Shown here one piece after another: positions 18,913 to 64,000 of a stretch of DNA of 64,000 nt (position 1 is the first letter of the stretch; every line of letters begins with the position of its first letter). The position numbers were made by a program, and so were the translations under genes. Source of the DNA: Arenicola marina (lineage: Eukaryota; Annelida; Polychaeta; Arenicolidae); contig OZ025252.1 of NCBI GenBank assembly GCA_964019135.1, forward strand, positions 47,714,959-47,778,958, in the 5' to 3' direction. The notes beneath the pieces were generated by a model. It worked only from the letters and a program-made list of their open reading frames with translations, was not told the DNA's origin and ran no database searches.

Positions 18913-19424
18913 ATAAATAGAGACTTGGGGCCTCAGAAGCTATTAGTTCGATTAGTCCGAACACGGGACCAACCTCGATCCGGTGTTCCATGCCGAGATG
19001 CTCCACTGTGTCTATCATAACGACACCGTACGAACAAATGGAGCGGAGAGGGTCTCAATATAAGGTATTTATATAAGGGGGGCCTTTTCGCATGAGGTGG
19101 TGGGAGGGGAGGGGGGTGGGGGCGCATTTCCTCATGTCGCACCGGGATTGGATGCGGCGGAAGGTATGTTTGGCATATATGTTGTGCATAAAGGTTGTAT
19201 GACGTTGTCTTTATGCATTTGTCGAATAGATCAGTCACATCGAGATGTGTTTAACCTGTATCTCTGCTCGCCCAGCCCACCGCGGATATTTCCGCGCCAT
19301 ACTAAATCAGATACGCACTGAAAGGAATCCGATGCCTACCTGCTGAATGTTATCTATTGAAGAAAGTCAGTCCCAAGAGTACTTGGGATAGATGTAGTAG
19401 ACAGGCTTGTAGATATAGGTCTCA
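18913..19424. other. Intergenic sequence with an ambiguous open segment
   Basis: The stretch 18955-19070 is open on both strands (plus: TNLDPVFHAEMLHCVYHN; minus: MIDTVEHLGMEHRIEVGPVF). Neither is recognised. A G-rich stretch lies near 19095-19120. No confident feature. Confidence 0.4.
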
Positions 19425-20794: not shown

Positions 20795-20995
20795 AGGGTT
20801 GATGGGGCGTGGAGGGGTGGGGCGTGGGGAGGTGGGGCGTAGCGGGGTGGGGCGTGAAGGGTGGGGCTTGAGGGTTGGGGCACGAGGGACGGGGCGTAGC
20901 GGGGTGGGGCGTGAGGGATGGGGCGTGGAGGGGTGGGGCGTAGCGGGGTGGGGCGTGAGGGATGGGACGTGGAGGGGTGAGGTGGCGGTTACGGA
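20795..20995. repeat. GC-rich tandem repeat in the 3' UTR
   Basis: Variants of GGGGCGTAGCGGGGTG and GGGGCGTGAGGGATG alternate for about 200 bp on the plus strand. The minus strand, and so the inferred transcript, is C-rich here. Confidence 0.8.
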
Positions 20996-21048: not shown

Positions 21049-21185
21049 TCAGGTCAGCAGTCGCTGCATCTGTTCGTAGCCGGCTTTCAGCAGGAATTGG
21101 AAGTTGGCGCCTTCCCTAATATCGCCCAGCTCGTCACTGGCGAGCAGCGCCTCGACCCGGGGCAGCACCTGGCGGATGTCCAGCC
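21049..21185 (-). CDS. NUP133: Nup133 last coding exon with stop codon
   Basis: Encodes [20 protein letters not shown] then [20 protein letters not shown] and RLLT, then TGA. Phase 1 start. Matches human [44 protein letters not shown], the end of the Nup107-binding domain. Acceptor GCTGTTGCAG follows a CT-rich tract that is copied through the intron. Confidence 0.97.
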
Positions 21186-39100: not shown

Positions 39101-42100
39101 CAGCCTGACACACTGACATCATGTAGAACACCACGATGACAGCCTGACACACTGATATCATGTAGAACACCACAGCCTGACACACTGACATCATGTAGAA
39201 CGCCACGATGACTGCCTGACACACTGACATCATGTAGAACACCACGATGACAGCCTGACACACTGACATCATGTAGAACACCACGATGACAGCCTGACAC
39301 ACTGACATCATGTAGAACACCACGATGACAGCCTGACACACTGACATCATGTAGAACACCACGATGACAGCCTGACACACTGACATCATGTAGAACACCA
39401 CGATGACTGCCTGACACACTGACATCATGTAGAACACCACGATGACAGCCTGACACACTGACATCATGTAGAACACCACGATGACAGCCTGACACACTGA
39501 CATCATGTAGAACACCACGATGACAGCCTGACACACTGATATCATGTAGAACACCACAGCCTGACACACTGACATCATGTAGAACACCACGATGACAGCC
39601 TGACACACTGACATCATGTAGAACACCACAGCCTGACACACTGACATCGTGTAGAACGCCACGATGACAGCCTGACACAGACATCATGTAGAACACCACG
39701 ATGGCAGCCTGACACACTGACATCATGTAGAACGCCACGATGGCAGCCTGACACAGACATCATGTAGAACACCACGATGGCAGCCTGACACACTGACATC
39801 GTGTAGAACGCCACGATGACAGCCTGACACTGACATCGTGTAGAACACCACGATGACAGCCTGACACACTGACATCATGTAGAACACCACGATGACAGCC
39901 TGACACACTGACACCATGTAGAACACCACAGCCTGACACACTGACATCATGTAGAACGCCCCGATGACAGCCTGACACACTGACATCATGTAGAACGCCA
40001 CGATGACAGCCTGACACACTGACATCGTGTAGAACGCCCGATGACAGCCTGACACACTGACATCATGTAGAACGCATCTACTTACCGTGACGATAGAGTT
40101 GACGGCGGTTACCAGGGCGACGACCTCCCTGGGGGGTATGTCTGCCGCTAGCTGCTGCTCCTCCCCCTCCACCAGACACTCCAGCACCTCCTGCACCCGG
40201 GACACCTGGCAACACACGGGGTGGGGGGGGAGTCAGCGGAAAGTCATGGGGTTTTAGGTCACACTGGTGCACAAGGAAGTGTGAACGGAGCTCTACACTG
40301 ACGCGGCCATCAGACATTATGTACAACCCCACACTGTAACGTGAACCATTCCCTTACAGCTCTACACTGACGCGGCCATCAGACATCATGTACAACCCCA
40401 CACTGTAACGTGAACCATTCCCTTACAGCTCTACACTGACGCGGCCATCAGACATCATGTACACCCCCACACTGTAACGTGAACCATTCCCTTACAGCTC
40501 TACACTGACGCGGCCATCAGACATCATGTACAACCCCACACCGTAACGTGAACCATTCCCTTTCGCTCTGTGTTTCTAAATTATTATGGATATAGACACT
40601 CTCCCTCCTGCTGTGTTTCTAGTTTATTATAGACATAGATACCTAGACATATATGGATACAGATACCTGGCCCTTCCGTGCCGATATTTTGTTTCGCATA
40701 TTGGATGGGTGCAGTACCTCTCTGTAGAAGACGTCCTGGGGGGTGAGTCCAGAGGGTGGAACAGCGGCGCCCCGCTGTGCGAGCACTCTCTGAATAGCGC
40801 CATCTATGAGGCCCACGTGTCTGCGGCAGTGATAACATCGACAGTGTATAATGAATGGTTTAGGTGTGAAAGGCCACTTCGCGTACATCAAGGCTAAACT
40901 GACACAGGAAATATACCGGGACCCTGCCACGGCGCTGGATGGAAGAGAACCCAGAAGCAGGTCCCAGGGCGCGAACGCACGACCTGTTGATCTGCAGCTT
41001 ATTCGGCTTACCATCTGAGCAAGAGAGGTTTAAGGTCAAGGTCTGGCTATAATGAAGCCTTGTTTTTTTGGGCCGTGTTGCGCAGACGAGGGTTACCTAG
41101 TTATAATAAACGATATGAACCAATGCTATCGACATGTAGAGTTGAGAGTCCATCCTTCTGCACAGAGCAGCTCCACTGTGGAGGTAACAGGTCTTTACTC
41201 ACTGGCCGTGCAGCTCCCGCAGTATGTGTTACTGATAGCAGGACGTTACTCACTGGCCGTGCAGCTCCCGCAGTATGTGTTACTGATAACAGGACGTTAC
41301 TCACTGGCCGTGCAGCTCCCGCAGTATGTGTTACTGATAACTGGACGTTACTCACTGGCCGTGCAGCTCCCGCAGTATGTGTTACTGATAACAGGTCGTT
41401 ACTCACTGGCCGTGCAGCTCCCGCAGTATGTGTTACTGATAACAGGACGTTACTCACTGGCCGTGCAGCTCCCGCAGTATGTGTTACTGATAACAGGTCG
41501 TTACTCACTGGCCGTGCAGCTCCCGCAGTATGTGTTACTGATAACAGGTCGTTACTCACTGGCCGTGCAGCTCCCACAGTATGTGTTACTGATAACAGGT
41601 CGTTACTCACTGGCCGTGCAGCTCCCGCAGTATGTGTTACTGATAACAGGACGTTACTCACTGGCCGTGCAGCTCCCGCAGTATGTGTTACTGATAACTG
41701 GACGTTACTCACTGGCCGTGCAGCTCCCGCAGTATGTGTTAATGATAACAGGTCGTTACTCACTGGCCGTGCAGCTCCCGCAGGATGTGTTACTGATAAC
41801 AGGACGTTACTCACTGGCCGTGCAGCTCCCGCAGTACGTGTTACTGATAACAGGACGTTACTCACTGGCCGTGCAGCTCCCGCAGTATGTGTTACTGATA
41901 ACAGGTCGTTACTCACTGGCCGTGCAGCTCCCGCAGTATGTGTTACTGATAACAGGACGTTACTCACTGGCCGTGCAGCTCCCGCAGTATGTGTTACTGA
42001 TAACAGGACGTTACTCACTGGCCGTGCAGCTCCCGCAGTATGTGTTACTGATAACAGGACGTTACTCACTGGCCGTGCAGCTCCCGCAGTATGTGTTACT

Positions 42101-51100: not shown

Positions 51101-54100
51101 CAGCTCCCGCAGTATGTGTTACTGATAACAGGACGTTACTCACTGGCCGTGCAGCTCCCACAGTATGTGTTACTGATAACAGGTCGTTACTCACTGGCCG
51201 TGCAGCTCTCGCAGTATGTGTTACTGATAACAGGACGTTACTCACTGGCCGTGCAGCTCCCGCAGTATGTGTTACTGATAACAGGACGTTACTCACCGGC
51301 CGTGCAGCTCCCTCAGTATGTGTTACTGATAACAGGACTTTACTCACTGGCCGTGCAGCTCCCGCAGTATGTGTTACTGATAACAGGACGTTACTCACTG
51401 GCCGTGCAGCTCCCGCAGTATGTGTTACTGATAACAGGACGTTACTCACTGGCCGTGCAGCTCCCGCAGTATGTGTTACTGATAACAGGACGTTACTCAC
51501 TGGCCGTGCAGCTCCCGCAGTATGTGTTACTGATAACAGGACGTTACTCACTGGCCGTGCAGCTCCCGCAGTATGTGTTACTGATAACAGGACGTTACTC
51601 ACTGGCCGTGCAGCTCCCGCAGTATGTGTTACTGATAACAGGACGTTACTCACTGGCCGTGCAGCTCCCGCAGTATGTGTTACTGATAACAGGACGTTAC
51701 TCACTGGCCGTGCAGCTCCCGCAGTAGGTGTTACTGATAACAGGTCGTTACTCACTGGCCGTGCAGCTCCCGCAGTATGTGTTACTGATAACAGGACGTT
51801 ACTCACTGGCCGTGCAGCTCCCGCAGTAGGTGTTACTGATAACAGAACGTTACTCACTGGCCGTGCAGCTCCCGCAGTATCTTGGCAGCACTCAGCTTCT
51901 CGGCGTGCTCACAGAGTAACAGGCGAGTCAGCATGGGACGGTCTCGCACCATGGTCAGTGCCAGCTGTAAAGAGTGTTGAATGAGTTTTGTGCACACACG
52001 AGCCAGACTTGGCTAAAGAACCTCCCTGGACGACGAAGGATGAATGAATTAAACACCCCAGATTAGGTGGCCGGGCTCGGTTGGTGGCTTTTATATTGAG
52101 GACGCTTTAACCATTTATGGTCATATCGCGTCAATGGGAGAAGGAAAGGAGAGCCATGTCCCCGGGGGTAACCCCCTACTCTTTGCGAAGAAGGATATGG
52201 GATCTTTATCCTGCGACCTCACAAACAAGGCCACAGCGGGGCGCGAACCAGCGATCCACATGCCGTTAGGCTCTCAGGTGGCCAGAACACTCAATGCGAG
52301 GGCTCTAACAGACTGAGCTATCGAGGCGGCCCGCCCGGGCCCGGCATCGAGCCCTATTGAGCTGAGGTCTAGCGCACTAACCACTACACCAGGGAGATGT
52401 GGTCTACGTCACGCGTAGTAAATACAGGCGATAATTGTTTGACGTATTAATCATAAATGGGGAAATAAACGTGTTATTTAATGCATATAGATCTACAAAA
52501 CATATTAACTTGCATGTCCTATCGACCTCAACCACTGTTTATTTTGGGCACTGGCTTCTCCACTTGGCCTACAAACGGTGTTTATTATGCAACACACAAT
52601 GTTGATACATCGTCACAACGACACCACAGCCGACAGGAAGTGACGACCACGTGACAGGCTCCACGTGACCGCCCACTCACCCGAGTCCAGATGCCAGAGG
52701 TCTTCAGGAAGGGCAGCAGGTACTCGTGCACTGTCATCTTCCCCTCCAGCTGGTGCATCAGGATCAGCGACCCGGAGCTGGTGCCGCCATCTAGCGGGAC
52801 ACAAGATAGATGACCGGACTTGTAATTCACAGGACTAAAAAAATACTGACATATAAATACAGCAACTGGGGGTCAGACTAGGGGTATATGACTGACCCAG
52901 ACGCCTGGACTAGGCCCACCGGGGGTCGGACTGGGGGTATATGACTGACCCAGACGCCTGGACTCGGCCCACCGGGGGTCGGACTGGGGGTATATGACTG
53001 ACCCAGACGCCTGGACTAGGCCTACCGGGGGTCGGACTGGGGGTATATGACTGACCCAGACGCCTGGACTCGGCCCACCGGGGGTCGGACTGGGGGTATA
53101 TGACTGACCCAGACGCCTGGACTCGGCCCATCGGGGGTCGGACTGGGGGTATATGACTGACCCAGACGCCTGGACTAGGCCTACCGGGGGTCAGACTAGG
53201 GGTATATGACTGACCCAGACGCCTGGACTCGGCCCACCGGGGGTCGGACTGGGGGTATATGACTGACCCAGACGCCTGGACTAGGCCTACCGGGGGTCGG
53301 ACTGGGGGTATATGACTGACCCAGACGCCTGGACTAGGCCTACCGGGGGTCGGACTGGGGGTATATGACTGACCCAGACGCCTGGACTCGGCCCACCGGG
53401 GGTCAGACTAGGGGTATATGACTGACCCAGACGCCTGGACTCGGCCCACCGGGGGTCGGACTGGGGGTACTCGTCGATGATCTCCTGGCTGAGGGCCGCC
53501 ACCAGCTGATCCAGATCTGATCCGGGTTCCTCTGTGGAGGGCAGTCCGACCGGAAACATGTCGTCCACGATATCCTGAGCCTGGTCCTGGAGCAATACAA
53601 ACACGGCATGTAAGTCCGGAGAGTGAGAAGGCAAGGTGGCACAGATGTATGATTAATATTAACATGTGGGTCAATAACTCTTTAGAACAACGTCAGTGAT
53701 GAGATAAGACAAGTTCATCTTGCTTATTAGTCTCCACGAAATGGACGTTCTAGGGTAACACACATAAACCCAATCGCTGTTACTCCCCGTGAGTATCCAC
53801 CATGACGTCATAGGCACGAAGCGTTGAAATTAAACTGAGACATCAGCCCACCCACCAAAACCTTCTCGCTTGTGACCACGCCGTACCCCTTTCTTGCGGG
53901 TGGACAGCAGGAATGCCCTTCCCCACCCCCCCTGGCCTCCCTACCCCTTTCTTGCGGGTGGACAGCAGGAAGGCCGCCCCCCCCCCGGGACGCCTTACCC
54001 CTTTCTTGCGGGTGGACAGCAGGAGTAGCACCCCCCCCCCCCCCCGGGACGCCTTACCCCTTTCTTGCGGGTGGACAGCAGGAATGCCCCTCCCCACCCC

Positions 54101-57100
54101 CCCCCCTCTGGCCTCCCTACCCCTTTCTTGCGGGTGGACAGCAGGAAGGCCGCCCCCCCCCCCCCCGGGACGCCTTACCCCTTTCTTGCGGGTGGACAGC
54201 AGGAGTAGCACCCCCCCCCCCCCCCGGGACGCCTTACCCCTTTCTTGCGGGTGGACAGCAGGATTGCCCCTCCCCACCCCCACCCCCTCTGGCCTCCCTA
54301 CCCCTTTCTTGCGGGTGGACAGCAGGAAGGCCGCCCCCCCCCCCCCCGGGACGCCTTACCCCTTTCTTGCGGGTGGACAGCAGGAAGGCCGCCTTCAGCC
54401 TCCCGATCTTGTCTTCGCGCATGCTCATCTCCTGTATCTGTGTGAGGTCCATGGCGCCGAAGGCCGTGGTGTCCATGTGGGTGGCCGGGTCCATCAGGAT
54501 CGACTCGCTGAGCCTGAGCCGGCCACAGCGACAGCCGGGGAAACCAAGGCAACGTGAGATACAGTACACAATACAAAGACATCATACAATATGGACTAAT
54601 TTATTAAGTTGAAAGTAAATCGGCTCTATCAATATCTATGAGTTTCTGATCGGTTAATAATGAACGCACCACATGGGACTAGTAAGCAATAATGCTATGA
54701 ATGGATCCCTTTTTTGTTCGTTAAATGCAGTTAAACAAATTGTTTATCTTGATAATAACATTCACAATCTCTTTATTATAGCGAAATCATGCCCGAGTGT
54801 TCACATTGACGAGTCACAATGCTTGATAGGCTGGCTGAATAACACTTTAACATTCGTTACTCTGTTTTACCAAGATATGCCTACAATATTTCGCAGGTAA
54901 CACAGATTGAGTTTCCCGTCTGAGCCACAATATATAATCTAAGTGCTACATGTACACATATGATTGTCATGAGCATAAAGCATGGTGTGACCCTTGACCT
55001 TTGACCTACATGGATTCGTCGGCACCCCTCAGCTGGGGACTCTCCCTGACGGACACCAGACCCCGGACCCCAGAGAGAAACAGGGCCGTGTTGTCATGGT
55101 GACCTGCAGAGATACACGCAACCTGGGGCTTCAACGTGTTTTTATGTCGCAAAGCCGATTATAACAAAGTCATCTTGCTGAGGTACTCCATTATTACAAC
55201 ATCATTAAATTATTAAAGGCACCTCATAAATTACGTTTATACACAAAACAAAGAATGAAAAACAATTCCAGATGTGGAAAACGCTCTTGTTATAAATATA
55301 GATCAATGTTTTGTTTAAACCAGGGGTGAGAAGCAGCCAAGAACACCGCCCAAGAAGTCAGACAGTGAGAAGCGCCAGAGACTGATGTTAGATATCATGA
55401 ACCTTAACACGACCGCTCTTTAAGAAAAACTCATGGATCACGAAATTAGTTGTTTACCCCGAGAGGGACACGCAATCTTTAATCTAACTAAGACTCAGAC
55501 CATCATAAATGTTGCTCAGCAATCCGCCACTGTCATACACAGTGCCGTGACTGGGTAGGTAGTCCTCAGTGACTGTCTTATATACTATGAGAGTGTCAGG
55601 GTACGGGGGTGAGTTGTTACCTGCTCCCAGGACTTTGTCCCCGCTGGCCTGGAACTTGAGGCTGTCCACGGCTTGGGGGGGACTGGAGACTGAAAGCAAA
55701 GCACAGGGCACGTCAGGCCGCTTTGGTGCACACACCAGGTAAATCAGTCCAGCTTGAGTCAGAGATCACTGGCGGGTCGAGCTGGAGACGTTAACGCCCT
55801 TGGAGTATCAGTTACTGGTATACCCTCAGTGGTATGGTGTTGTATGTAAGCCACATTGCAGAAGACATGCATACACTTGTTTCTAGTAAAACTCACGTAT
55901 TACTCACACCAAATTACTGCAATAATCCCCTATATGCATCCCAAAGTAGAAGCTGTATCTTGAAAAACGTCCTAAATGTCCCCAGTGGGGACATGCCGGT
56001 TAGTAGAACTTAATATAGCTTAGCATAACTGTTATACTCACGATATAGATAAGTATAACTGTTATACTCACAATATAGATTAGTATAACTGTCATACTCA
56101 CAATATAGATTAGTATAACTGTCATACTCACAATATAGATTAGTATAACTGTTATACTCACAATATAGATTAGTATAACTGTTATACTCACGATATAGAT
56201 TAGTATAACTGTTATACTCACGGGACATGCACAGGGCGGTGTGTTCATCGTAGACATAGACGGAGGAGGCGGCTGGGTTGGGCAGCACCATCCTGTACCG
56301 CAGCCCACTGTGCTCATCCTCCGCCTGTCAAAGTATCAACGACTCACTGTCATCATCGAGGTCATGGTGTGATCACGTGCTCACTGGTCTTATTACCTTC
56401 TGATGACAGTTTGGTGATGCCAGTTAGATCTTGAATATTTGTATTTGTCACAGATGGAACCTCTACAAGCAATCCCTTACATCAACCTGCTTTAAAACTC
56501 GACAAATGCGAAGTCTAAAAAGAAATTACCACATATGACCGGATTTCCCTGGTTATACAAGTTCCGGTCCAGGCCGGGTTCCCCTAGTGACAGGCCGGGT
56601 TCCCCTAGTGACACGCCGGGTTCCCCTAGTGACACGCCGGGTTCCCTAGTGACACGCCGGGTTCCTCTAGTGACACGCCGGGTTCCCCTAGTGACACGCC
56701 GGGTTCCCCTAGTGACACAACGGGTCCCCCAAGTGACACGCCGGGTTCCCCTAGTGACACGCCGGGTTCCCCTAGTGACACGCCGGGTCCCCCTAGTGAC
56801 AGGCCGGGTTCCCCTAGTGACACGCCGGGTCCCCCCAGTGACACGCCGGGTTCCCCTAGTGACACGCCGGGTTCCCCTAGTGACACGCCGGGTTCCCCTA
56901 GTGACAGGCCGGGTTCCCCTAGTGACACGCCGGGTTCCCCTAGTGACACGCCGGGTTCCCCTAGTGACAGGCCGGGTTCCCCTAGTGACACGCCGGGTCC
57001 CCCCAGTGACACGCCGGGTTCCCCTAGTGACACGCCGGGTCCCCCTAGTGACACGCCGGGTTCCCCTAGTGACACGCCGGGTCCCCCCAGTGACACGCCG

Positions 57101-60100
57101 GGTTCCCCTAGTGACACGCCGGGTTCCCCTAGTGACACGCCGGGTTCCCCTAGTGACAGGCCGGGTTCCCCTAGTGACAAGCCGGGTCCCCCTAGTGACA
57201 GGCCGGGTTCCCCTAGTGACAGGCCGGGTTCCCCTAGTGACACGCCGGGTTCCCCTAGTGACACGCCGGGTTCCCCTAGTGACACGCCGGGTTCCCCTAG
57301 TGACACGCCGGGTTCCCCTAGTGACACGCCGGGTCCCCCTAGTGACACGCCGGGTCCCCCTAGTGACACGCCGGGTCCCCCCAGTGACACGCCGGGTTCC
57401 CCTAGTGACACGCCGGGTCCCCCTAGTGACACGCCGGGTTCCCCTAGTGACAGGCCGGGTTCCCCTAGTGACAGGCCGGGTTCCCCTAGTGACAGGCCGG
57501 GTTCCCCTAGTGACAGGCCGGGTTCCCCTAGTGACAGGCCGGGTTCCCCTAGTGACAGGCCGGGTTCCCCTAGTGACACGCCGGGTTCCCCTAGTGACAG
57601 GCCGGGTTCCCCTAGTGACAGGCCGGGTTCCCCTAGTGACACGCCGGGTTCCCCTAGTGACACGCCGGGTTCCCCTAGTGACACGCCGGGTTCCCCTAGT
57701 GACAGGCCGGGTTCCCCTAGTGACACGCCGGGTTCCCCTAGTGACACGCCGGGTTCCCCTAGTGACAGGCCGGGTTCCCCTAGTGACAGGCCGGGTCCCC
57801 CTAGTGACAGGCCGGGTCCCCCTAGTGACAGGCCGGGTTCCCCTAGTGACAGGCCGGGTTCCCCTAGTGACACGCCGGGTTCCCCTAGTGACACGCCGGG
57901 TTCCCCTAGTGACACGCCGGGTTCCCCTAGTGACAGGCCGGGTTCCCCTAGTGACAGGCCGGGTTCCCCTAGTGACACGCCGGGTTCCCCTAGTGACACG
58001 CCGGGTTCCCCTAGTGACACGCCGGGTTCCCCTAGTGACAGGCCGGGTTCCCCTAGTGACAGGCCGGGTTTCCCTAGTGACAGGCCGGGTCCCCCTAGTG
58101 ACAGGCCGGGTCCCCCTAGTGACAGGCCGCCCCGCCCCCCCCACCTGGTGGTACGTGGTGTGCCGTGGGATGGTGAAGGCGATGAAACTGAGCGGCGCAT
58201 CCTCGCCTTCCGAATGCAGCGTCCCTGTAACACAGCCGGGGGGGGGGTCAAGTCAGCAACAGGGGGGGGGGGGGGGTCAAGTCAGCAACAGGGGGGGGGG
58301 GGGAATCAGTCAACAACAACTGCTGAAAGTGGTATTCTTTAGTTTCCACAATATGTATCAATCACAATCATTAGTAAGCTCACTCAATAGGTCAACATTT
58401 GCATAAAAAAACTCAGTATCGCTCTCACGTTTAAACATACCTATGACGTAGCACATTTCTGCGGACCCCTCGGGGTTCATGCACACATACCTATGACGTA
58501 GCACATTTCTGCGGACCCCTCGGGGTTCATGCACACATACCTATGACGTAGCACATTTCTGCGGACCCCTCGGGGTTCATGCACACATACCTATGACGTA
58601 GCACATTTCTGCGGACACCTCGGGGTTCATGCACACATACCTATGACGTAGCACATTTCTGCGGACCCCTCGGGGTTCATGCACACATACCTATGACGTA
58701 GCACATTTCTGCGGACACCTCGGGGTTCATGCACACATACCTATGACGTAGCACATTTCTGCGGACACCTCGGGGTTCATGCACACATACCTATGACGTA
58801 GCACATTTCTGCGGACACCTCGGGGTTCATGCACACATACCTATGACGTAGCACATTTCTGCGGACCCCTCGGGGTTCATGCACACATACCTATGACGTA
58901 GCACATTTCTGCGGACACCTCGGGGTTCATGCACACATACCTATGACGTAGCACATTTCTGCGGACACCTCGGGGTTCATGCACACATACCTATGACGTA
59001 GCACATTTCTGCGGACCCCTCGGGGTTCATGCACACATACCTATGACGTAGCAAATTTCTGCGGACACCTCGGGGTTCATGCACACATACCTATGACGTA
59101 GCACATTTCTGCGGACCCCTCGGGGTTCATGCACACATACCTATGACGTAGCACATTTCTGCGGACCCCTCGGGGTTCATGCACACATACCTATGACGTA
59201 GCACATTTCTGCGGACACCTCAGGGTTCATGCACACATACCTATGACGTAGCACATTTCTGCGGACACCTCGGGGTTCATGCACACATACCTATGACGTA
59301 GCACATTTCTGCGGACACCTCGGGGTTGATGCACACGTACCTATGACGTAGCACATTTCTGCGGACACCTCGGGGTTCATGCCGGCTCCCAGTATGAGGA
59401 CCCCGTCACGCGTCACTTGCATGTCGAGCAGCCAGGACTTGAGGCCGCGCAGGTTGCCTGGCTGCTGGTGCTGCTCAACGGGAAGAATACAGTGAGCGTC
59501 AGGCAACGAGACTTACGCACGAGATGCGGCGAGACTCGTCCCACCGAGTGGCTCTGACAAGTTCACGGCGTGAAACCAGCAGTATATCACAGACAGTCTG
59601 GCTTCGCCACCATAATTTACTGAACTGTCAGTTGTTGCGGTAATTATAACAAATGGAGGCGAATATGTTCCCACTTATGTAGCCAGATGCTTTTAATATA
59701 ACTCTATAGCCAAGGAAGCCATCCTCTGTGAACCCTGTACGACATCGTTCTGCGTTCACTACACGAGGCGGAACGGTCAATCAATCTCCACATTCCATCT
59801 CTCCGTTCAATCTCTGCACGCCACTCCCCATTACTTACCCAGATACTTTCCGCCAAGCAGTCGCGCACAAAGGCATCCACATTGCACTGATACAGCAACT
59901 GCACAAAGGAAATGATAATTTGTTATGCCGGGTGTTCATTATGAGACAGTAGGCTGAACGAGCTGTTGTTAGAGGGTATTACTAATATTTCCCTTCAGGC
60001 CTTGTAACATCATGCTAATACAAATCTCCATTCCCTCAGATCGAGAAATTTGGAGTTGTTGAAGTATGGACTGCGGAGATTAGTCACTTGTCCGGACGCC

Positions 60101-63100
60101 GACACGGACCGTGTGACAGGGTGTAGGGGTCACCGACAGAGGTCACTGCGGGCGTTGAGCACTGACCTTCTCGGCGTCTCCCGCCAACGCCCACTTCTGA
60201 AGGTTACAGCCGGCCAGCACGTAGAAGGTAGGGCGGCCGTCAGCCAGGTTCTCGCCAGCCAGCAGCTGAAGCAGCTTCTGTGAAGGGATGAGCAGACATA
60301 ACAACAGTTTACTAGAATGTTGGCTGGCCTCTGATGGGTCTACTACAATACATAAACCAGAATAATGTTCATTTATAATGTTTCTGATGGCCCGCCCCCC
60401 ACCCCCCCCCCCCCTGTTAACTCACCCGCGTTCTCATGCTGTTCCTTCATCCACCACCCCACCCCCAGTTTACTCATCGCGCCCTCGGGCTGTTCCTTTC
60501 TTCACCCCGCCCCCCCGTTTACTCACCGCGCCCTCGGGCTGTTCCTTCCTCCACCCTGCCCCCCTGTTTACTCACCGCGCCCTCGGGCTGTTCCTTCCTT
60601 CACCCCCCCCCCCCCCCAGTTACTCATCGCGCCCTCGGGCTATTTCTTTCTCCGCCCTGCCCCTGTTTACTCACCGCGCCCTCGGGCTGTTCCTTCCTCC
60701 ACCCCGCCCCCCAGTTTACTCACCGCGCCCTCGGGCTCTTTCTTCCTCCGCCCCGCCCCCCCTGTTTACTCACGACGCCTTCGGGCTATTCCTTCCTTCA
60801 CCCCTCCCCCCACTTTATTTACCGCGCTCTCGGGCTCTTTCTTCCTCCACCCCGCCCCCGGGCTGTTCCTTCCTCCACCCCGCCCCCCCGTTTACTCACC
60901 GCGCCCTCGGGCTCTTTCTTCCTCCGCCCCGCCCCCCCTGTTTACTCACGACGCCTTCGGGCTATTCCTTCCTTCACCCCTCCCCCCACTTTATTTACCG
61001 CGCCCTCGGGCTCTTTCTTCCTCCACCCCGCCCCCGGGCTGTTCCTTCCTCCACCCCGCCCCCCCGTTTACTCACCGCGCCCTCGGGCTCTTTCTTCCTC
61101 CACCCCGCCCCCGGGCTGTTCCTTCCTCCACTCCGCCCCCCCGTTTACTCACCGCGCCTTCGGGCTCTTTCTTCCTCCACCCCGCCCCCGGGCTGTTCCA
61201 TCCTCCACCTCGCCCCCTCTGTTTACTCACCGCGTCCTCGGGCTATTTCTTCCTCCGCCCCGCTCCCCTGTTTACTCACCGCGCCCTCGGGCTGTTCCTT
61301 CCTCCAACCCCCTCCCCGGTTTACTCACCGCGCCCTCGGGCTGCTCCTTCCTCCCCCCCCCCACCCTCTGTTTACTCACCGCGCCCTCGGGCTGTTCCTT
61401 CCTCCAACCCCCTCCCCTGTTTACTCACCGCGCCCTCGGGCTGTCCCTTCCTCCACCCCGCTCCCCCTGTTTACTCACCGCGCTCTCGGGCTGTTCCTTC
61501 CTCCCACCCCCACCCTCTGTTTACTCACCGCGCCCTCGGGCTGTTCCTTCCTCCAACCCCCTCCCCTGTTTACTCACCGCGCCCTCGGGCTGTCCCTTCC
61601 TCCACCCCGCTCCCCCTGTTTACTCACTGCGCCTTTGGGCTGTTCCTTCCTCCACCCCGCCCTCCCTGTTTACTCACCGCGCCCTCGGGCTGTTCCTTCC
61701 TCCGCCCCGCTCCCCTGTTTACTCACCGCGCCCTCGGGCTGTTCCTTCCTCCGCCCCGCTCCCCTGTTTACTCACCGCGCCCTCGGGCTGTTCCTTCCTC
61801 CACCCCGCTCCCCTGTTTACTCACCGCGCCCTCGGGCTGTTCCTTCCTCCAACCCCTTCCCCTGTTTACTCACCGCGCCCTCGGGCTATTCCTTCACCCC
61901 CCCCCCTCCCCTGTTTACTCACCGCGCCCTCGGGCTATTCCTTCACCCCCCCCCTCCCCTGTTTACTCACCGCGCCCTCGGGCTATTCCTTCCTCCAACC
62001 CCCTCCCCTGTTTACTCACCGCGCCCTAAAGCTGTTCCTTCCTCCAAACCCCTCCCCTGTTTAATCACCGCGCTTTGGGCTGTTCCTTCCTCCACCCCGC
62101 CCTCCCTGTTTACTCACCGCGCCCTCTGGCTGTTCCTTCCTCCGCCCCGCTCCCCTGTTTACTCACCGCGCCCTCGGGCTGTTCCTTCCTCCAACCCCCT
62201 CCCCTGTTTACTCACCGCGCCCTCGGGCTGTTCCTTCCTCCGCCCCGCTCCCCTGTTTACTCACCGCGCCTTTGGGCTGTTCCTTCCTCCACCCCGCCCT
62301 CCCTGTTTACTCACCGCGCCCTCGGGCTGTTCCTTCCTCCGCCCCGCTCCCCTGTTTACTCACCGCGCCCTCGGGCTGTTCCTTCCTCCAACCCCTTCCC
62401 CTGTTTACTCACCGCGCCCTCGGGCTATTCCTTCCTCCAACCCCCTCCCCTGTTTACTCACCGCGCCCTCGGGCTGTTCCTTCCTCCAACCCCCTCCCCT
62501 GTTTACTCACCGCGCCCTCGGGCTGTTTCTTCATCCCCCCACCCCACCCTCTGTTTACTCACTGCGCCCTCGGGCTGTCCCTTCCTCCACCCCGTCCCCC
62601 CTGTTTACTCACTGCGCCTTTGGACTGTTCCTTCCTCCACCCCGCCCTCGGGCTGTTCCTTCCTCCGCCCCGCTCCCCTGTTTACTCACCGCGCCTTTGG
62701 GCTGTTCCTTCCTCCACCCCGCCCTCCCTGTTTACTCACCGCGCCCTCGGGCTGTTCCTTCCTCCGCCCCGCTCCCCTGTTTACTCACCGCGCCCTCGGG
62801 CTGTTCCTTCCTCCAACCCCTTCCCCTGTTTACTCACCGCGCCCTCGGGCTATTCCTTCCTCCAACCCCCTCCCCTGTTTACTCACCGCGCCCTCGGGCT
62901 GTTCCTTCCTCCCCCCCCCCCACCCCCTGTTTACTCACCGCGTCCTCGGGCTGTTCCTTCCTCCAACCCCCTCCCCGGTTTACTCACCGCGCCCTCGGGC
63001 TGTTCCTTCCTCCAACCCCCTCCCCGGTTTACTCACCGCGCCCTCGGGCTGTTCCTTCCTCCGCCCCGCTCCCCTGTTTACTCACCGCGCCCTCGGGCTG

Positions 63101-64000
63101 TTCCTTCCTCCAACCCCTTCCCCTGTTTACTCACCGCGCCCTCGGGCTGTTCCTTCCTCCAACCCCTTCCCCTGTTTACTCACCGCGCCCTCGGGCTATT
63201 CCTTCCTCCAACCCCCTCCCCGGTTTACTCACCGCGCCCTCGGGCTGTTCCTTCCTCCAACCCCCTCCCCGGTTTACTCACCGCGCCCTCGGGCTGTTCC
63301 TTCCTCCGCCCCGCTCCCCTGTTTACTCACCGCGCCCTCGGGCTGTTCCTTCCTCCAACCCCTTCCCCTGTTTACTCACCGCGCCCTCGGGCTATTCCTT
63401 CCTCCAACCCCCTCCCCTGTTTACTCACCGCGCCCTCGGGCTGTTCCTTCCTCCCCCCCCCCCCACCCCCTGTTTACTCACCGCGTCCTCGGGCTGTTCC
63501 TTCCTCCAACCCCCTCCCCTGTTTACTCACCGCGTCCTCGGGCTGTTCCTTCCTCCAACCCCCTCCCCTGTTTACTCACCGCGCCCTCGGGCTGTTCCTT
63601 CCTCCCCCCCCCCCACCCCCTGTTTACTCACCGCGTCCTCGGGCTGTTCCTTCCTCCAACCCCCTCCCCGGTTTACTCACCGCGCCCTCGGGCTGTGGGG
63701 TGGCCGCCCGGAAGATGAATGTGGACATCCTCCGCCCTATGCCAGCCATCATACCACGTGACGCGTGCAGCTCCCGACATTGCAGGGCGTTCTGAAAGGT
63801 GCAAGAGGTATTTGTTCACGTCACATATCACAGACATATATGGGAGTCGAAGTGGCAGTCATAACACTCTATTTGTTGTCCATGTTTGTGGAATAGCCTT
63901 GCATGGGCAGCAGTCCACATTTAAAGGAAACCGCCAGCCTGGCCTCTAACGCTGCTTACCGATTCATATAATACCCAATTGTCTATCCTCCAAATTCCAG
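21049..64000 (-). CDS. NUP133: Nuclear pore complex protein Nup133 (gene span, 5' end beyond window)
   Basis: Nup133 is a scaffold subunit of the Y-shaped Nup107-160 complex of the nuclear pore. It sits at the tip of the Y stem and binds Nup107 through its C-terminus. Twenty-nine minus-strand exons (first one partial) join with unbroken phase into 975 residues ending at a TGA at 21049. Segments recognised against vertebrate Nup133, from memory: GIGRRMSTF (ALPS motif), [128 protein letters not shown]. Residues 1 to about 295 are the end of the beta-propeller; the remainder is the alpha-helical domain. Human Nup133 is 1156 residues; roughly its first 230 are missing here, off the right edge. 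Exons total about 2.9 kb in 43 kb; most introns are swollen by minisatellites. The span includes introns; exons are listed separately. Confidence 0.95.
21190..24118 (-). repeat. Intron 28 array: ~47-bp unit, about 62 copies, acceptor-like
   Basis: Gene-strand unit: CTCTCTCTCCCGCTAATTAC then CGTAAGCCGTGGTGTAACCG, CCCAGTG. It runs to the acceptor of the last exon, whose own tract reads CTCTCTCTCCCGCTGTTGCAG. Each unit therefore repeats the pyrimidine tract plus GCTAAT, a good branch-point match, but lacks the terminal CAG at that position. Confidence 0.95.
24166..24251 (-). CDS. NUP133: Nup133 exon 28 (C-terminal region)
   Basis: Encodes [20 protein letters not shown] then TLELAYTT, phase 2 to 1. 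Matches human [29 protein letters not shown]. Acceptor TTTGGCAG, donor GTAGGG. Confidence 0.95.
24375..25090. repeat. Intron 27 array: 24-bp unit, about 30 copies
   Basis: Plus-strand unit GGGTTGAAACAGGGGTGGAG plus GTAA. The gene strand is pyrimidine-rich (TTACCTCCACCCCTGTTTCA). GAGGTAAGG looks like a donor but lies on the antisense strand of Nup133. Confidence 0.93.
25230..25297 (-). CDS. NUP133: Nup133 exon 27 (C-terminal region)
   Basis: Encodes [20 protein letters not shown] then RD, phase 0 to 2. Matches human INDLKLEILCKALQRDN. Acceptor TGCTGCAG, donor GTCAGT. Confidence 0.94.
25505..25850 (-). repeat. Intron 26 array: 25-bp unit, about 13 copies
   Basis: Gene-strand unit CAGCAGTGTACGTCACTGCA with CACCC or AACCC. 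Starts 8-10 bp after the exon 26 donor. Each unit has GTACGT, a possible weak donor, and a TGACGT half-site on the plus strand. No exon sequence is included. Confidence 0.93.
25852..25932 (-). CDS. NUP133: Nup133 exon 26 (C-terminal Nup107-binding region)
   Basis: Encodes [20 protein letters not shown] then LLSYVDK, phase 0 to 0. Matches human [26 protein letters not shown], inside the C-terminal region known to bind Nup107. Donor GTAAGA. Confidence 0.98.
25975..26237 (-). mobile_element. tRNA-derived SINE, family A, in Nup133 intron 25
   Basis: Reverse complement of family A. The head (GTAGCTCAGTGGGTTAGAGC on the minus strand) and B-box-like GGTTCGAGCC are at the right end, and the CCAA-type tail at the left end is short. 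Several substitutions separate it from the array copy, so it is an independent insertion. Confidence 0.87.
26427..26468 (-). repeat. Intron 25: three donors at an 18-bp period
   Basis: On the gene strand AATAGAC-GTAAGT is followed by AAAC-GTAAGT and AATAGAC-GTAGGT, each 18 bp apart. The first is the real exon 25 donor (26463-26468); the others are at 26445-26450 and 26427-26432. This looks like an early stage of the donor-seeded arrays seen elsewhere. Confidence 0.85.
26469..26525 (-). CDS. NUP133: Nup133 exon 25 (helical domain)
   Basis: Encodes [19 protein letters not shown], phase 0 to 0. Matches human SAMPVLTAPQLIGLY. Acceptor GTTGTAG, donor GTAAGT. The exon end and donor recur twice at an 18-bp period in the intron. 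Confidence 0.92.
26779..26840 (-). CDS. NUP133: Nup133 exon 24 (helical domain)
   Basis: Encodes [20 protein letters not shown], phase 1 to 0. Matches human [20 protein letters not shown]. Acceptor CATTTCAG, donor GTCAGT. Confidence 0.95.
26841..27241 (-). other. Nup133 intron 23
   Basis: AT-rich intron without tandem array or recognisable element. Ends in a normal acceptor. Confidence 0.8.
27242..27317 (-). CDS. NUP133: Nup133 exon 23 (helical domain)
   Basis: Encodes [20 protein letters not shown] then HNNLE, phase 0 to 1. Matches human [24 protein letters not shown]. Acceptor TTTTACAG, donor GTAGGG. Confidence 0.97.
27558..27617 (-). CDS. NUP133: Nup133 exon 22 (helical domain)
   Basis: Encodes [20 protein letters not shown], phase 0 to 0. 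Matches human [20 protein letters not shown]. Acceptor TGTTGCAG. The donor GTTCGT has an unusual T at +3; moving it to the better GTCAGT four bases on would break the frame. Confidence 0.95.
27618..27810 (-). repeat. Intron 21 with a two-copy repeat
   Basis: TGACAACACAACCCCCAGGC and the following CACTGGTGTGG recur after about 60 bp (27640 and 27701), diverged by a few bases. The rest is AT-rich. Confidence 0.7.
27811..27864 (-). CDS. NUP133: Nup133 exon 21: candidate 18-residue cassette exon
   Basis: A 54-nt open segment, phase 0 to 0, encoding [18 protein letters not shown]. Acceptor TATTTTTAG, donor GTCGGT. Human Nup133, as I remember it, has no counterpart: skipping this exon gives [14 protein letters not shown], the same length as human INSQELEKAHATLL. 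The peptide itself resembles the end of the previous exon plus the join, so it may be a duplicated or alternative exon, or not an exon at all. Confidence 0.6.
28005..28129 (-). CDS. NUP133: Nup133 exon 20 (helical domain)
   Basis: Encodes [20 protein letters not shown] then [20 protein letters not shown] and Q, phase 1 to 0. Matches human [32 protein letters not shown]. The exon itself begins GTAAGCG right after its acceptor, so a donor-like sequence lies inside it. Donor GTCAGT. Confidence 0.97.
28270..28368 (-). mobile_element. Degraded tRNA-like sequence in intron 19
   Basis: On the minus strand TTTGTGGCTCAGCTGGTAGC is a good A-box match; the B-box position (GCTTCGTCCAACCCC) is weak. Possibly the head of an old SINE. 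Confidence 0.35.
28583..34410 (-). repeat. Intron 19 array: 35-47-bp units, about 130 copies, G-rich on the transcript
   Basis: Gene-strand unit: CTAAGGCACCTCCATCAACA, then a G6AG5-like run, then AGTCACGTCT. It matches the first ~20 nt of the intron after exon 19 (GTAAGGCACCTCCATCAACA) except that the donor GT is CT. A block of about 2.23 kb is duplicated: GACGG variant at 31071 and 33305; long C run at 30371 and 32601. Confidence 0.95.
34415..34454 (-). CDS. NUP133: Nup133 exon 19 (small, 40 nt)
   Basis: Encodes [13 protein letters not shown] plus one base, phase 0 to 1. Matches human NFSDFLFRWYLEKG. Acceptor TTTATTTCAG, donor GTAAGG. Flanked by a 1.5-kb array upstream and a 5.8-kb array downstream. 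The small size leaves it dependent on splice-site recognition between repeats. Confidence 0.95.
34490..35955. repeat. Intron 18 array: 56-bp unit, about 26 copies
   Basis: Plus-strand unit holds CATCAAGTTCATTACATATA then ACGACCAGCGGTATCTGTCA and CATGTATGTATC. It lies on the acceptor side, ending within about 35 bp of exon 19, and carries no obvious splice signal. One copy (about 34840) is partly duplicated. Confidence 0.95.
36120..36253 (-). CDS. NUP133: Nup133 exon 18 (helical domain)
   Basis: Encodes [20 protein letters not shown], then [24 protein letters not shown]. Phase 1 to 0. Very close to human [40 protein letters not shown]. Donor GTCAGT. Confidence 0.98.
36254..36610 (-). other. 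Nup133 intron 17
   Basis: Unique sequence apart from a short GAGGTCAGAGTGAGGCT-type repeat at 36270-36365. No gene or element seen. Confidence 0.75.
36611..36845 (-). CDS. NUP133: Nup133 exon 17 (helical domain, longest exon)
   Basis: Encodes 78 residues, phase 0 to 1. Starts [12 protein letters not shown] and continues through [16 protein letters not shown] to [19 protein letters not shown]. Matches human QHEIVLKVAYPQA, LIDCFLDGYVSQLKSV and [20 protein letters not shown]. A Gly/His-rich loop ([13 protein letters not shown]) is specific to this sequence. Acceptor GTGTATAG, donor GTAAGA. Confidence 0.94.
37010..37171 (-). CDS. NUP133: Nup133 exon 16 (helical domain)
   Basis: Encodes 54 residues, phase 0 to 0. 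[12 protein letters not shown], a Gly-rich insert, then [20 protein letters not shown] and IKQ. Matches human LQAASHYRQNR and [23 protein letters not shown]. The Gly/Pro-rich stretch ([13 protein letters not shown]) replaces a charged loop in human. Donor GTAACG. Confidence 0.95.
37440..40078 (-). repeat. Intron 15 array: 39-bp unit, about 67 copies
   Basis: Gene-strand unit TTCTACATGATGTCAGTGTG, TCAGGCTGTCATCGTGGTG, with some 24-bp short forms. It starts about 8 bp after the exon 15 donor. Each unit contains GTCAGTGTG, which resembles the GTCAGT donors used by six other exons here. Period 39 gives spurious open frames of 240-526 codons. Confidence 0.95.
40086..40205 (-). CDS. NUP133: Nup133 exon 15 (helical domain)
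   Basis: Encodes [20 protein letters not shown] and, further on, [13 protein letters not shown], phase 0 to 0. Matches human VSQVDTICECLLEHEEQVL and AEVVINVNNIL. Acceptor TTGCCAG, donor GTAAGT. Confidence 0.95.
40291..40566. repeat. Intron 14 tandem repeat: 69-bp unit, four copies
   Basis: CTCTACACTGACGCGGCCAT begins a 69-bp unit at 40291, 40360, 40429 and 40498, with only a few differences. It does not include exon or donor sequence. Confidence 0.9.
40718..40820 (-). CDS. NUP133: Nup133 exon 14 (helical domain)
   Basis: Encodes [20 protein letters not shown] then [14 protein letters not shown], phase 2 to 0. Matches human [33 protein letters not shown]. Acceptor CTGCCGCAG; the donor GTACTG is weak. 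About 10.9 kb of intron separates it from the exon upstream. Confidence 0.96.
40935..41040 (-). mobile_element. Probable tRNA-derived SINE in intron 13
   Basis: On the minus strand CTTGCTCAGATGGTAAGCCG (A-box-like) and CGTGCGTTCGCGCCC (B-box-like) are about 40 bp apart, as in a tRNA-related head. The body is not well defined. Confidence 0.45.
41170..51857 (-). repeat. Intron 13 array: 51-bp unit, about 209 copies, each with a GTGAGTAAC donor
   Basis: Gene-strand unit: ATACTGCGGGAGCTGCACGG, CCA, then GTGAGTAACG and about 18 bases of intron. The first 23 nt equal the end of exon 13. The 51-bp period is a multiple of three, so all frames that avoid TGA stay open for up to ~1850 codons. Variants (CACGGTCGGTGAGT, TGTTATC/TCCAGTTATC) define higher-order blocks with internal shifts of about 1171 bp (44998 to 46169) and 1428 bp (47622 to 49050). 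Confidence 0.97.
51858..51964 (-). CDS. NUP133: Nup133 exon 13; source of the 51-bp array
   Basis: Encodes [20 protein letters not shown] then RELHG, phase 0 to 2. Matches human [20 protein letters not shown]. Acceptor CTTTACAG, donor GTGAGTAAC. The exon's last 23 nt plus the donor make up nearly half of each repeat in the following 10.7 kb. Confidence 0.97.
52075..52337 (-). mobile_element. tRNA-derived SINE, family A, in Nup133 intron 12
   Basis: Family A on the minus strand. The head reads CCTCGATAGCTCAGTCTGTT and the body ends CATAAATGGTTAAAGCGTCC. The B-box region is degraded (GGTTCGCGCCC). It lies directly downstream of a second tRNA-like head. Confidence 0.85.
52338..52410 (-). mobile_element. 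Second tRNA-like head next to the SINE
   Basis: On the minus strand TCCCTGGTGTAGTGGTTAGT contains an A box, and GGGCTCGATGCCGGG a B-box-like element. It abuts the family A head, which gives a dimeric tRNA-SINE arrangement or a nested insertion. Confidence 0.55.
52681..52790 (-). CDS. NUP133: Nup133 exon 12 (helical domain)
   Basis: Encodes [20 protein letters not shown] then [10 protein letters not shown], phase 1 to 0. Matches human [30 protein letters not shown]. Acceptor CCGCTAG, donor GTGAGT. Confidence 0.96.
52886..53426 (-). repeat. Intron 11 array: 10 copies of a 53-bp exon-end plus donor unit
   Basis: Exact 53-bp period (donors at 52891, 52944, 52997 and so on to 53421). Each unit is 43 nt of the exon 11 end, including the sequence that encodes [10 protein letters not shown], followed by GTCAGTCATA. 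The conserved protein motif makes clear that the exon is the source and the intron copies are derived. Confidence 0.97.
53427..53586 (-). CDS. NUP133: Nup133 exon 11 (helical domain; [11 protein letters not shown] motif)
   Basis: Encodes 53 residues, phase 0 to 1. Contains [11 protein letters not shown], then [18 protein letters not shown], then [10 protein letters not shown], matching human AQMVVDELF, SELDRAVTQISVDLMDDY and [10 protein letters not shown]. Acceptor TTGCTCCAG, donor GTCAGT. The 3' 43 nt, which encode the conserved [10 protein letters not shown], are repeated 10 times in the following intron. Confidence 0.96.
53880..54359 (-). repeat. Intron 10 array: 8 copies of exon 10 end plus donor, in a 3-unit higher-order pattern
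   Basis: Each unit contains TCCTGCTGTCCACCCGCAAG and AAAGGG, the last 26 nt of exon 10, followed by a donor. The donors are GTAAGG (four), GTAGGG (three) and GTACGG (one). Units repeat as GTAGGG, GTAAGG, GTAAGG at a period of about 178 bp (seen at 53941, 54117, 54295). Poly-G runs of 8-14 on the gene strand separate units. Confidence 0.95.
54360..54513 (-). CDS. NUP133: Nup133 exon 10 (linker and start of helical domain)
   Basis: Encodes 51 residues, phase 2 to 0. [20 protein letters not shown] aligns with human [21 protein letters not shown] (around residue 517), where the alpha-helical domain begins. The preceding [20 protein letters not shown] aligns with the acidic, Ser/Thr-rich human linker. 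Donor GTAAGG. The last 26 nt with the donor are the unit of the next intron's array. Confidence 0.95.
54514..55009 (-). other. Nup133 intron 9
   Basis: Unique AT-rich intron sequence. The short plus-strand open frame at 54673-54900 has no recognisable similarity and no splice or promoter context. Confidence 0.75.
55010..55103 (-). CDS. NUP133: Nup133 exon 9 (end of beta-propeller)
   Basis: Encodes [20 protein letters not shown] then [10 protein letters not shown], phase 1 to 2. Matches human VPIIFSRNSGLVSITSRE. The donor is placed at GTAGGT, so the split codon ATG is completed by the next exon; reading on would give an immediate stop. Window residues 236-265. Confidence 0.9.
55104..55620 (-). 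other. Nup133 intron 8
   Basis: Unique AT-rich intron sequence without tandem repeats. Nothing further seen. Confidence 0.75.
55621..55689 (-). CDS. NUP133: Nup133 exon 8 (beta-propeller)
   Basis: Encodes [20 protein letters not shown] then GA plus a split Gly, phase 1 to 1. Matches human LPQEKIVFNAQGDSVLGAG. Acceptor CTTTCAG, donor GTAACA. Confidence 0.95.
56012..56221 (-). repeat. Intron 7 array: 30-bp unit repeating the exon 7 donor
   Basis: Gene-strand unit GTGAGTATAACAGTTATACT plus ten AT-rich bases. Seven copies of GTGAGTAT occur 30 bp apart; the one ending at 56221 is the real donor of exon 7, leaving six downstream. Exon sequence is not included: the bases before decoy donors are ATT or TCG-like rather than the exon's CCC. 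Confidence 0.93.
56222..56324 (-). CDS. NUP133: Nup133 exon 7 (beta-propeller)
   Basis: Encodes [20 protein letters not shown] and HTALCMS, phase 0 to 1, matching human [28 protein letters not shown]. Acceptor TTGACAG, donor GTGAGTATAAC. That donor sequence recurs every 30 bp through the next 210 bp of intron. Confidence 0.94.
56570..58135 (-). repeat. Intron 6 array: 21-bp unit, about 74 copies
   Basis: Gene-strand unit is GTGTCACTAGGGGAACCCGGC with G/C variants at one position and GGACC/GAACC variants. Because 21 is a multiple of three and the unit lacks stops in several frames, it creates open frames of 540-620 codons on both strands; they are not genes. The unit does not contain exon 6 sequence. 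The array starts within about 15 bp of the exon 6 donor. Confidence 0.95.
58145..58224 (-). CDS. NUP133: Nup133 exon 6 (beta-propeller)
   Basis: Two bases then [20 protein letters not shown] and HTTYHQ, phase 1 to 0. Acceptor GTGTTACAG. The donor GTGGGG is weak and runs straight into a poly-G tract. Corresponds to the human YYSLITIEDNG to EVTQYNPPF strands. Window residues 152-177. Confidence 0.85.
58238..58310 (-). repeat. Acceptor-side short repeat before exon 6
   Basis: Two copies, plus a partial third, of a poly-C tract followed by TGTTGCTGACTTGAC on the gene strand, immediately upstream of the exon 6 acceptor. GCTGAC fits a branch-point consensus (CTRAC) and the C run fits a polypyrimidine tract. 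Confidence 0.75.
58431..59340 (-). repeat. Intron 5 array: 18 copies of a 50-bp exon-end plus donor unit
   Basis: Exact 50-bp period from 58441 to 59341. Each unit holds 40 nt identical or nearly so to the end of exon 5, then GTATGTGTGC. A single C/A variant distinguishes two unit types (GGGTCCGCAG versus GTGTCCGCAG); the exon has the latter. The copy farthest from the exon is followed by GTATGTTTAAAC, probably the original intron start before duplication. Confidence 0.97.
59341..59470 (-). CDS. NUP133: Nup133 exon 5 (beta-propeller); source of the 50-bp array
   Basis: Encodes 43 residues plus one base (phase 0 to 1): [20 protein letters not shown] aligns with human [20 protein letters not shown]. 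Acceptor TTGAGCAG, donor GTACGT. The last 40 nt, encoding [12 protein letters not shown], recur 18 times downstream in the intron, each followed by a GTATGT donor. Confidence 0.93.
59471..59838 (-). other. Nup133 intron 4
   Basis: Unique intron sequence. No array or element recognised. Minus-strand reading after the exon 4 donor stays open for some 45 codons, which is not conserved and not counted as coding. Confidence 0.75.
59839..59898 (-). CDS. NUP133: Nup133 exon 4 (beta-propeller)
   Basis: Encodes [20 protein letters not shown], phase 0 to 0, acceptor TTTGTGCAG, donor GTAAGT. Aligns with human NRALKENITDAIW. Window residues 88-107. Confidence 0.92.
60167..60277 (-). CDS. NUP133: Nup133 exon 3 (beta-propeller)
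   Basis: Encodes 37 residues, phase 0 to 0, acceptor TTCACAG, donor [27 protein letters not shown] aligns with human [22 protein letters not shown], a propeller blade. Window residues 51-87. Confidence 0.93.
60420..63680 (-). repeat. Intron 2 array: ~54-bp unit carrying the exon 2 end and its 5' splice site
   Basis: Roughly 60 tandem copies. On the gene strand each unit holds ACAGCCCGAGGGCGCG followed by GTGAGTAAAC. The first block is the last 16 nt of exon 2 and the second is its donor. The rest of the unit is a variable G-rich spacer and GGAGGAAGGA. Copies with GAGGACGCG, GAGAGCGCG and AAGGCGCG variants recur at intervals. The array begins at the real donor at 63680 and ends about 140 bp before the next exon. 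Confidence 0.95.
63681..63791 (-). CDS. NUP133: Nup133 exon 2: ALPS membrane-curvature sensor loop
   Basis: Encodes 37 residues (window residues 14-50), phase 0 to 0, with acceptor TTTCAG and donor GTGAGT. The segment [15 protein letters not shown] aligns with the human ALPS motif (around residues 245-267, GMLSGIGRKVSSLFG). That motif is an amphipathic helix in a propeller loop that senses curved membrane at the pore. The end of this exon (about 16 nt) plus its donor is the core of the array filling the following intron. Confidence 0.92.
63960..64000 (-). CDS. NUP133: Nup133 exon 1 of window (partial, beta-propeller)
   Basis: The open frame reads [13 protein letters not shown] up to a GTAAGC donor and joins in phase 0 to the next exon. 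The tryptophan-rich strand fits a propeller blade just before the ALPS loop. The upstream end lies outside the window. This is the least certain exon because it is short and cut by the window edge. Confidence 0.7.

Follow-up and report, generated by a model that had tools for sequence, protein, structure and literature searches.

The original paper on intronic 'mirages' is reportedly Canestro 2002. In amphioxus, these minisatellites span exon-intron boundaries at Adh3 and at globin genes, can occur at either boundary and apparently leave splicing undisturbed (PMC3087553). PGBD5 was added to the mirage genes in a paper that describes first repeats abutting 5' splice sites and also cites troponin C (PMC3902484). 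A comparable effect in chicken, termed 'sequence stuttering' or 'exon stuttering', is described for 236 introns of 115 genes, 190 on dot chromosomes (Hron et al. 2026; PMC12954441). There, the multiplied sequence is the border of an exon together with its donor or acceptor, the exon part being 20-187 bp (median 36) in 1-44 copies; the same paper ties stuttering to GC-rich coding sequence and mentions gerbil genes, with data not shown (PMC12954441). The authors call the chicken effect novel, and their article contains neither 'mirage' nor 'lancelet', with 'amphioxus' in one reference title only (PMC12954441). Introns full of tandem repeats are also known from an earthworm paper (PMC12783039) and from a paper on GC-rich avian genes (PMC6792250), in the available passages of which exon seeding is not seen. 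Among the matches listed from the open-licence literature, gathered without a Nup133-specific query, there were no such arrays in other invertebrates. The intron arrays of the Nup133 gene described here fit both the mirage and the exon stuttering descriptions, and the phenomenon itself is not new.

The DNA analysed (the window) is a stretch of 64 kb in which Nup133 lies on the minus strand and runs through 28 exons from ~63.8 kb to 21.05 kb. The joined exons form a 2887-nt CDS of 962 codons without a stop, with GT..AG at 27/27 introns. The top PDB match of the protein is the Nup133 chain 5a9q_3 (residues 247-1150, E = 1.5e-167), followed by the Nup133 chain 6lk8_J (E = 2.2e-156), which we take to be the human and Xenopus proteins, respectively; Pfam Nucleoporin_C is matched as well (E = 5.2e-19). 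Over ~610 aligned C-terminal residues, identity is 43.6% to the human chain and 43.3% to the Xenopus chain, and these two chains are 71.7% identical to each other, a divergence that points to a non-vertebrate animal as the source. Because the PDB match begins at Nup133 residue 247, more 5' exons are expected upstream of the window. The intron and exon numbers used here are those of the earlier note and remain nominal, as does its count of 28 introns, of which the window holds 27. Coding sequence is GC-rich (CDS GC 0.61, GC3 0.79), and two AATAAA signals lie 519 and 529 nt past the drawn end of exon 29. Exon 21 (27811-27864, 54 nt) falls in a gap of both Nup133 chain alignments and could be lineage-specific or alternatively used.

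Tandem Repeats Finder (TRF) places 19 intronic arrays in 17 of the 27 introns, covering 32,111 of 39,854 intron nt (80.6%) and leaving a median residue of 263 nt per intron after array removal. Two other TRF arrays were excluded as non-intronic, one past the stop codon (20803-20979) and one within exon 16 (37090-37120); the latter is a small internal repeat of the coding sequence, 12 nt x 2.6. Thirteen of the 19 arrays carry no exon sequence at all, so that exon seeding belongs to a broader expansion of the introns. At least 45 nt separate the donor from the start of each array in introns 14, 16, 17, 18, 27 (two) and 28 and of the second array in intron 5. The main arrays and the exons from which some of them derive are as follows.

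63681-63791, minus strand: exon 2 of the spliced gene model, source of the intron 2 array
60404-63696, minus strand: intron 2 array, ~49-nt unit (last 16 exon nt, GTGAGT and 27 intron nt), 60 junction copies
59341-59470, minus strand: exon 5 of the spliced gene model, source of the intron 5 array
58435-59382, minus strand: intron 5 array, 50-nt unit (last 41-42 exon nt and 8-9 intron nt from the donor), 18 junction copies
58238-58318: second intron 5 array, short, with long G/C runs
56573-58129, minus strand: intron 6 array, 21-nt unit of intron sequence only, from +16
56012-56221, minus strand: intron 7 array, 7 x 30 nt from +1, donor repeated without exon sequence, unit in frame
54360-54513, minus strand: exon 10 of the spliced gene model, source of the intron 10 array
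53878-54390, minus strand: intron 10 array, ~59-nt unit (last ~31 exon nt, donor and a G run), 8 junction copies
53427-53586, minus strand: exon 11 of the spliced gene model, source of the intron 11 array
52868-53469, minus strand: intron 11 array, 53-nt unit (last 43 exon nt and GTCAGTCATA), 10 junction copies
51858-51964, minus strand: exon 13 of the spliced gene model, source of the intron 13 array
41185-51880, minus strand: intron 13 array, 51-nt unit (last 23 exon nt, GTGAGT and 22 intron nt), 209 junction copies
37445-40073, minus strand: intron 15 array, 39-nt intronic unit, from +13
28589-34413, minus strand: intron 19 array, 43-nt unit from +2, 138 copies (TRF)
26469-26525, minus strand: exon 25 of the spliced gene model, source of the intron 25 mini-array
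26430-26474, minus strand: intron 25 mini-array, 2.5 x 18 nt (last 6-7 exon nt and donor), unit in frame
25512-25840, minus strand: intron 26 array, 25-nt intronic unit, from +12
21193-24120, minus strand: intron 28 array, 47-nt unit, stopping 7 nt short of the last exon, no acceptor-junction copy
21051-21185, minus strand: exon 29, the last Nup133 exon, drawn to the first base of the stop codon

Copies of the exon-intron junctions were sought in the 27 introns with 18-nt probes (12 exon and 6 intron nt, up to 3 mismatches, the real junction excluded). Extra copies of the donor junction are found in introns 2 (60), 5 (18), 10 (8), 11 (10) and 13 (209), and none in the other 22 of 27 introns, the mini-array of intron 25 having escaped the 18-nt search; acceptor-junction copies number 0 in 27/27 introns under the same search with up to 3 mismatches. 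Inspection of copy consensus against exon end, which covered 11 of the 27 introns, shows contiguity with the exon end over 16 nt (intron 2), 42 nt (intron 5), 43 nt (intron 11) and 23 nt (intron 13), and for intron 10 over 27 nt to the first mismatch, or 31 nt by the TRF border. Together with intron 25, six introns thus carry boundary-spanning units, all at the donor side. The statement in the earlier note that the units of introns 2, 5, 10, 11 and 13 consist of the last 16-43 nt of the exon plus the donor is therefore borne out. Its statement that introns 7 and 25 repeat the donor itself is right for intron 7, where the unit begins at +1 and holds no exon sequence, and falls short for intron 25, where 6-7 exon nt are included; the range it gave, 41170-63680, leaves the mini-array of intron 25 outside. 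Copies in the intron 19 array read CTAAGG where the donor reads GTAAGG, so that no donor is copied there.

Conservation bears on which of the two, exon or array, came first. The copied ends of exons 10 (LKAAFL) and 11 (the SDPRWAES stretch) are conserved Nup133 coding sequence common to both vertebrate chains, and for introns 10 and 11 the direction from exon to array is clear. Conservation is lower at the ends of exons 2, 5, 13 and 25, yet these lie within the same open frame, which suggests the same direction for introns 2, 5, 13 and 25. Compared with one another by blastn at E 1e-3, the 23 arrays of the window gave two weak matches only, both to the array at 58238-58318. The units look separate in origin and, being unrelated, the seeding events look independent, as the earlier note had also held of its different units.

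How strongly the arrays favor donors depends on the null. Uniform placement of whole arrays, under which 7 arrays lie at or over the donor vs 0.11 expected (P = 6e-12), gives junction-crossing seeds no room and is misleading; it was set aside. In a seed-drop null, one unit is dropped on the pre-array intron and purely exonic seeds are excluded. For the 19 arrays, 6 donor-spanning cases were then seen vs 2.7 expected (P = 0.037), and 0 acceptor-spanning cases vs 2.7 expected (P = 0.048). The donor-spanning expectation is 3.45 if acceptor-crossing seeds are barred (P = 0.097), 4.0 if the 3' 20 nt are barred (P = 0.17) and 5.1 if the 3' 50 nt are barred (P = 0.37). An early count without intron 25, which became the sixth case later, gave 5 exon-spanning arrays vs 3.14 expected (P = 0.18). 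Donor-spanning arrays number 5 of the 13 with at least 5 copies (2.1 expected, P = 0.042) and 5 of the 15 with at least 4 copies (2.4 expected, P = 0.068). All these P values are nominal and come from a single gene picked for being striking, under variants that comprise two seed-slot counts, 0, 20 or 50 nt barred at the 3' side, no minimum copy number or one of 4 or 5, and four start cut-offs. Introns are short once arrays are removed, so that random unit-length seeds cross donors often, and exon seeding as such is close to expectation for short minisatellite-filled introns. The view that nothing should make an ordinary minisatellite begin at the end of an exon is not supported as stated, given that random seeds yield 2.7-5.1 donor-spanning arrays of 19 vs 6 seen.

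The position of array starts within introns departs further from random seeding. Eleven of the 19 arrays start at or before +17, vs 4.0 (P = 0.00025) to 6.7 (P = 0.017) expected, and among arrays of at least 5 copies the figure is 10 of 13 vs 3.0 expected (P = 2e-5), whereas just 2 of 19 end as near the acceptor. Arrays lie a median of 12 nt from the donor and 210 nt from the acceptor (Wilcoxon, P = 0.049 for the 19 arrays and 0.019 for the largest array of each of 17 introns). This excess over the nulls argues against purely random seeding, and the 5' bias of array starts is not fully explained by it. In this gene, starts at or before +17 are commoner than chance, and donor-spanning arrays are near it.

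Both the early starts and the asymmetry of distances are what would be expected of a process linked to the 5' splice site, in which duplications at or just inside donors are favored by pausing of transcription, by R-loops or DNA damage, or by replication stress at GC-rich exon ends. The GC-rich CDS (GC3 0.79) points the same way, as the chicken cases are GC-rich too (PMC12954441), and so do the first repeats of lancelet PGBD5 that abut 5' splice sites (PMC3902484). However, the exon-spanning count itself is near chance (P = 0.04-0.37), and the early starts come from one striking gene, several cut-offs and nominal P values. Moreover, sense-strand G skew in the 8 donor-anchored arrays is no different from that in the other 11 (P = 0.22), giving no sign of the R-loops to which the earlier note had linked the arrays. 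Folding, which took in 12 of the 19 units (those of introns 2, 6, 7, 11, 13, 15, 18, 19, 26 and 28 and of the major arrays of introns 5 and 27), gives no support for hairpins in the donor- or exon-seeded units of introns 2, 5, 7, 11 and 13 (z -1.5 to +0.95). DNA hairpins better than shuffles were observed for the units of introns 26 (z -3.1) and 15 (z -2.5), neither of which is exon-seeded. A donor-targeted process is possible and not implied, contrary to what had been claimed, and we regard it as rather unlikely to be the main cause.

Another account is probably correct, namely that the intron arrays are minisatellites of the 'mirage' or 'exon stuttering' kind, tolerated where the first donor is kept and removed where the seed lies at the acceptor. 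Short tandem duplications would arise throughout the introns of the gene, by local break repair or slippage. A duplication across an exon/donor junction may be tolerated, since the real exon would keep an intact first donor and normal splicing, and growth through unequal exchange, conversion or repeat-length change would then add one spare donor per unit. Duplications straddling an acceptor would mostly be lost to selection, as they would place a competing AG and a broken exon start upstream. The lack of acceptor-spanning arrays could accordingly reflect selection on the branch point, pyrimidine tract and AG. Such selection is not absolute elsewhere, acceptor junctions being copied too in amphioxus and chicken (PMC3087553, PMC12954441).

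Tolerance of this kind supposes that one donor is used among many. Within the seven introns 2, 5, 7, 10, 11, 13 and 25, 316 GT hexamers anywhere in the intron differ by at most 1 mismatch from the intron's own donor. By this measure the earlier figure of more than 300 potential donors stands, whereas a donor matrix built from the 27 donors of this gene, with the 25th percentile of their own scores (6.7 bits) as the cut, passes only 186 sites across all 27 introns. Of those, 62 fall in intron 15, the unit of which does not come from an exon, and 39 in intron 13, and intron 5 contributes 0; the real donor of intron 13 itself scores 5.3 bits, below the cut. Read-through past the first donor meets a stop after 1 nt in intron 13, 47 in intron 5, 54 in intron 2, 123 in intron 10 and 137 in intron 11, and the first spare donor, at 49 nt in intron 2, 50 in intron 5, 58 in intron 10 and 53 in intron 11, is out of frame in each case. 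Inner donors in these five introns would therefore break the protein. In introns 7 and 25, units of 30 and 18 nt keep the frame, and the first stops come at 209 and 84 nt, beyond the spare donors. Splicing at the first donors yields the 962 open codons. Because read-through hits stops or shifts the frame, an intact protein depends on the first donor, and on sequence grounds it should be used most of the time.

Spare donors might instead have been kept for a function, as a U1 sponge, as a shield of long introns from early polyadenylation, or as a source of in-frame peptides in introns 7 and 25. Of the full-length copies in intron 13, 205 of 207 retain the GT, as do 10/10 in intron 11 and 18/18 in intron 5, and the units of introns 7 and 25 stay open past the last spare donor, as such a function would predict. 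However, the donor does not stand out clearly from the rest of the unit in conservation: six-column windows at least as invariant as the donor, the donor window included, number 13 of 51 in intron 13, 29 of 53 in intron 11 and 21 of 50 in intron 5. Copy spacing in these three introns indicates that no copy was skipped; two intron 13 copies with 49-nt spacing were dropped. Donor conservation in intron 2 looked strong at first and was not relied on, its copies having been chosen by donor match, with only 39 at 49-nt spacing. Selection on spare donors shows no clear sign, the 138-copy intron 19 array (TRF) copies no donor at all, and a function for the spare donors is very improbable.

Growth of the arrays has left traces in intron 13, where the 209 copies fall into 40 distinct forms, a run of 29 copies repeats exactly at 1428 nt and a run of 21 at ~1.17 kb. 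This array undergoes block turnover and block-wise homogenization. An assembler that inflates repeat number or duplicates blocks could produce the same exact 200-mers at kilobase lags as recur in some arrays. However, non-array intron and open exons flank the arrays, the intron 13 copies are diverse, and an assembler would not invent units joining an exon end to its own donor, so that an assembly artefact is scarcely credible. Outside Nup133, in a 15.8-kb array with a 20-nt C-rich unit (1-15772), exact 200-mers return at lags between 3.3 and 12.1 kb, and two further arrays lie downstream of the gene, at 16299-18184 (34-nt unit) and 19419-20460 (23-nt unit), the latter beginning ~50-70 nt beyond the AATAAA signals. 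The window also has an element in two dispersed copies (25979-26236 and 52079-52332) that share 84% identity over 259 aligned nt and, by eye, have a tRNA-like end, presumably a SINE; ARAGORN (bacterial code) found no tRNA and Rfam at gathering scores no match in the window.

Set beside the described systems, the Nup133 arrays resemble the amphioxus mirages (Adh3, BflGb6/BflGb9, troponin C, PGBD5) in their boundary-spanning tandem units within introns, intact exons and concerted evolution (PMC3087553, PMC3902484). Adh3 mirage units are 10-72 bp long (PMC3087553), and units here are tens of bases too. Amphioxus copy numbers are 6 and 3 units in two haplotypes of BflGb6 and 2-7 in PGBD5, at either boundary, whereas here they reach 209, at donors only. 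Allelic and somatic instability is reported there (PMC3087553 and PMC3902484), whereas one haplotype is seen here. In another described case, a tandem duplication across an intron-exon boundary carried splice signals with it and made a new intron; here, existing introns grew and no new one is seen.

The likeness to chicken stuttering lies in local repeats with units of tens of bases that fill the introns and are in part seeded at an exon border with its splice site, in GC-rich coding sequence and in intact exons, with 80.6% of intron nt in arrays and 17/27 introns affected here. The exon part is 20-187 bp in chicken and 6-43 nt here (PMC12954441). Copy numbers there are 1-44, at donors or acceptors, vs 8-209 here in the five main arrays, at donors only, and introns 2 and 13 exceed those chicken values (PMC12954441). 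This Nup133 would not be on an avian dot chromosome, judging from 43.6% identity to human vs 71.7% between Xenopus and human; the arrays work like exon stuttering, and no identity with the avian phenomenon is claimed. That mirages and exon stuttering are one general GC-linked exon-end instability, in which a 5'-splice-site mutational process seeds donor duplications across lineages as distant as lancelets, birds and this one, donor-only here, is a doubtful generalization.

Altogether, mirages (2002-2013) and exon stuttering (2026) share the same anatomy, and the six exon-seeded introns of a further, probably non-vertebrate gene suggest that the instability is more widespread and open to a genome-wide count. 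Intron 13 offers a natural test of spliceosome choice, with one donor among some 210 near-identical ones. Compared with the described cases, what is unusual in this locus is its copy number, with 209 in one intron, and its donor-only polarity.
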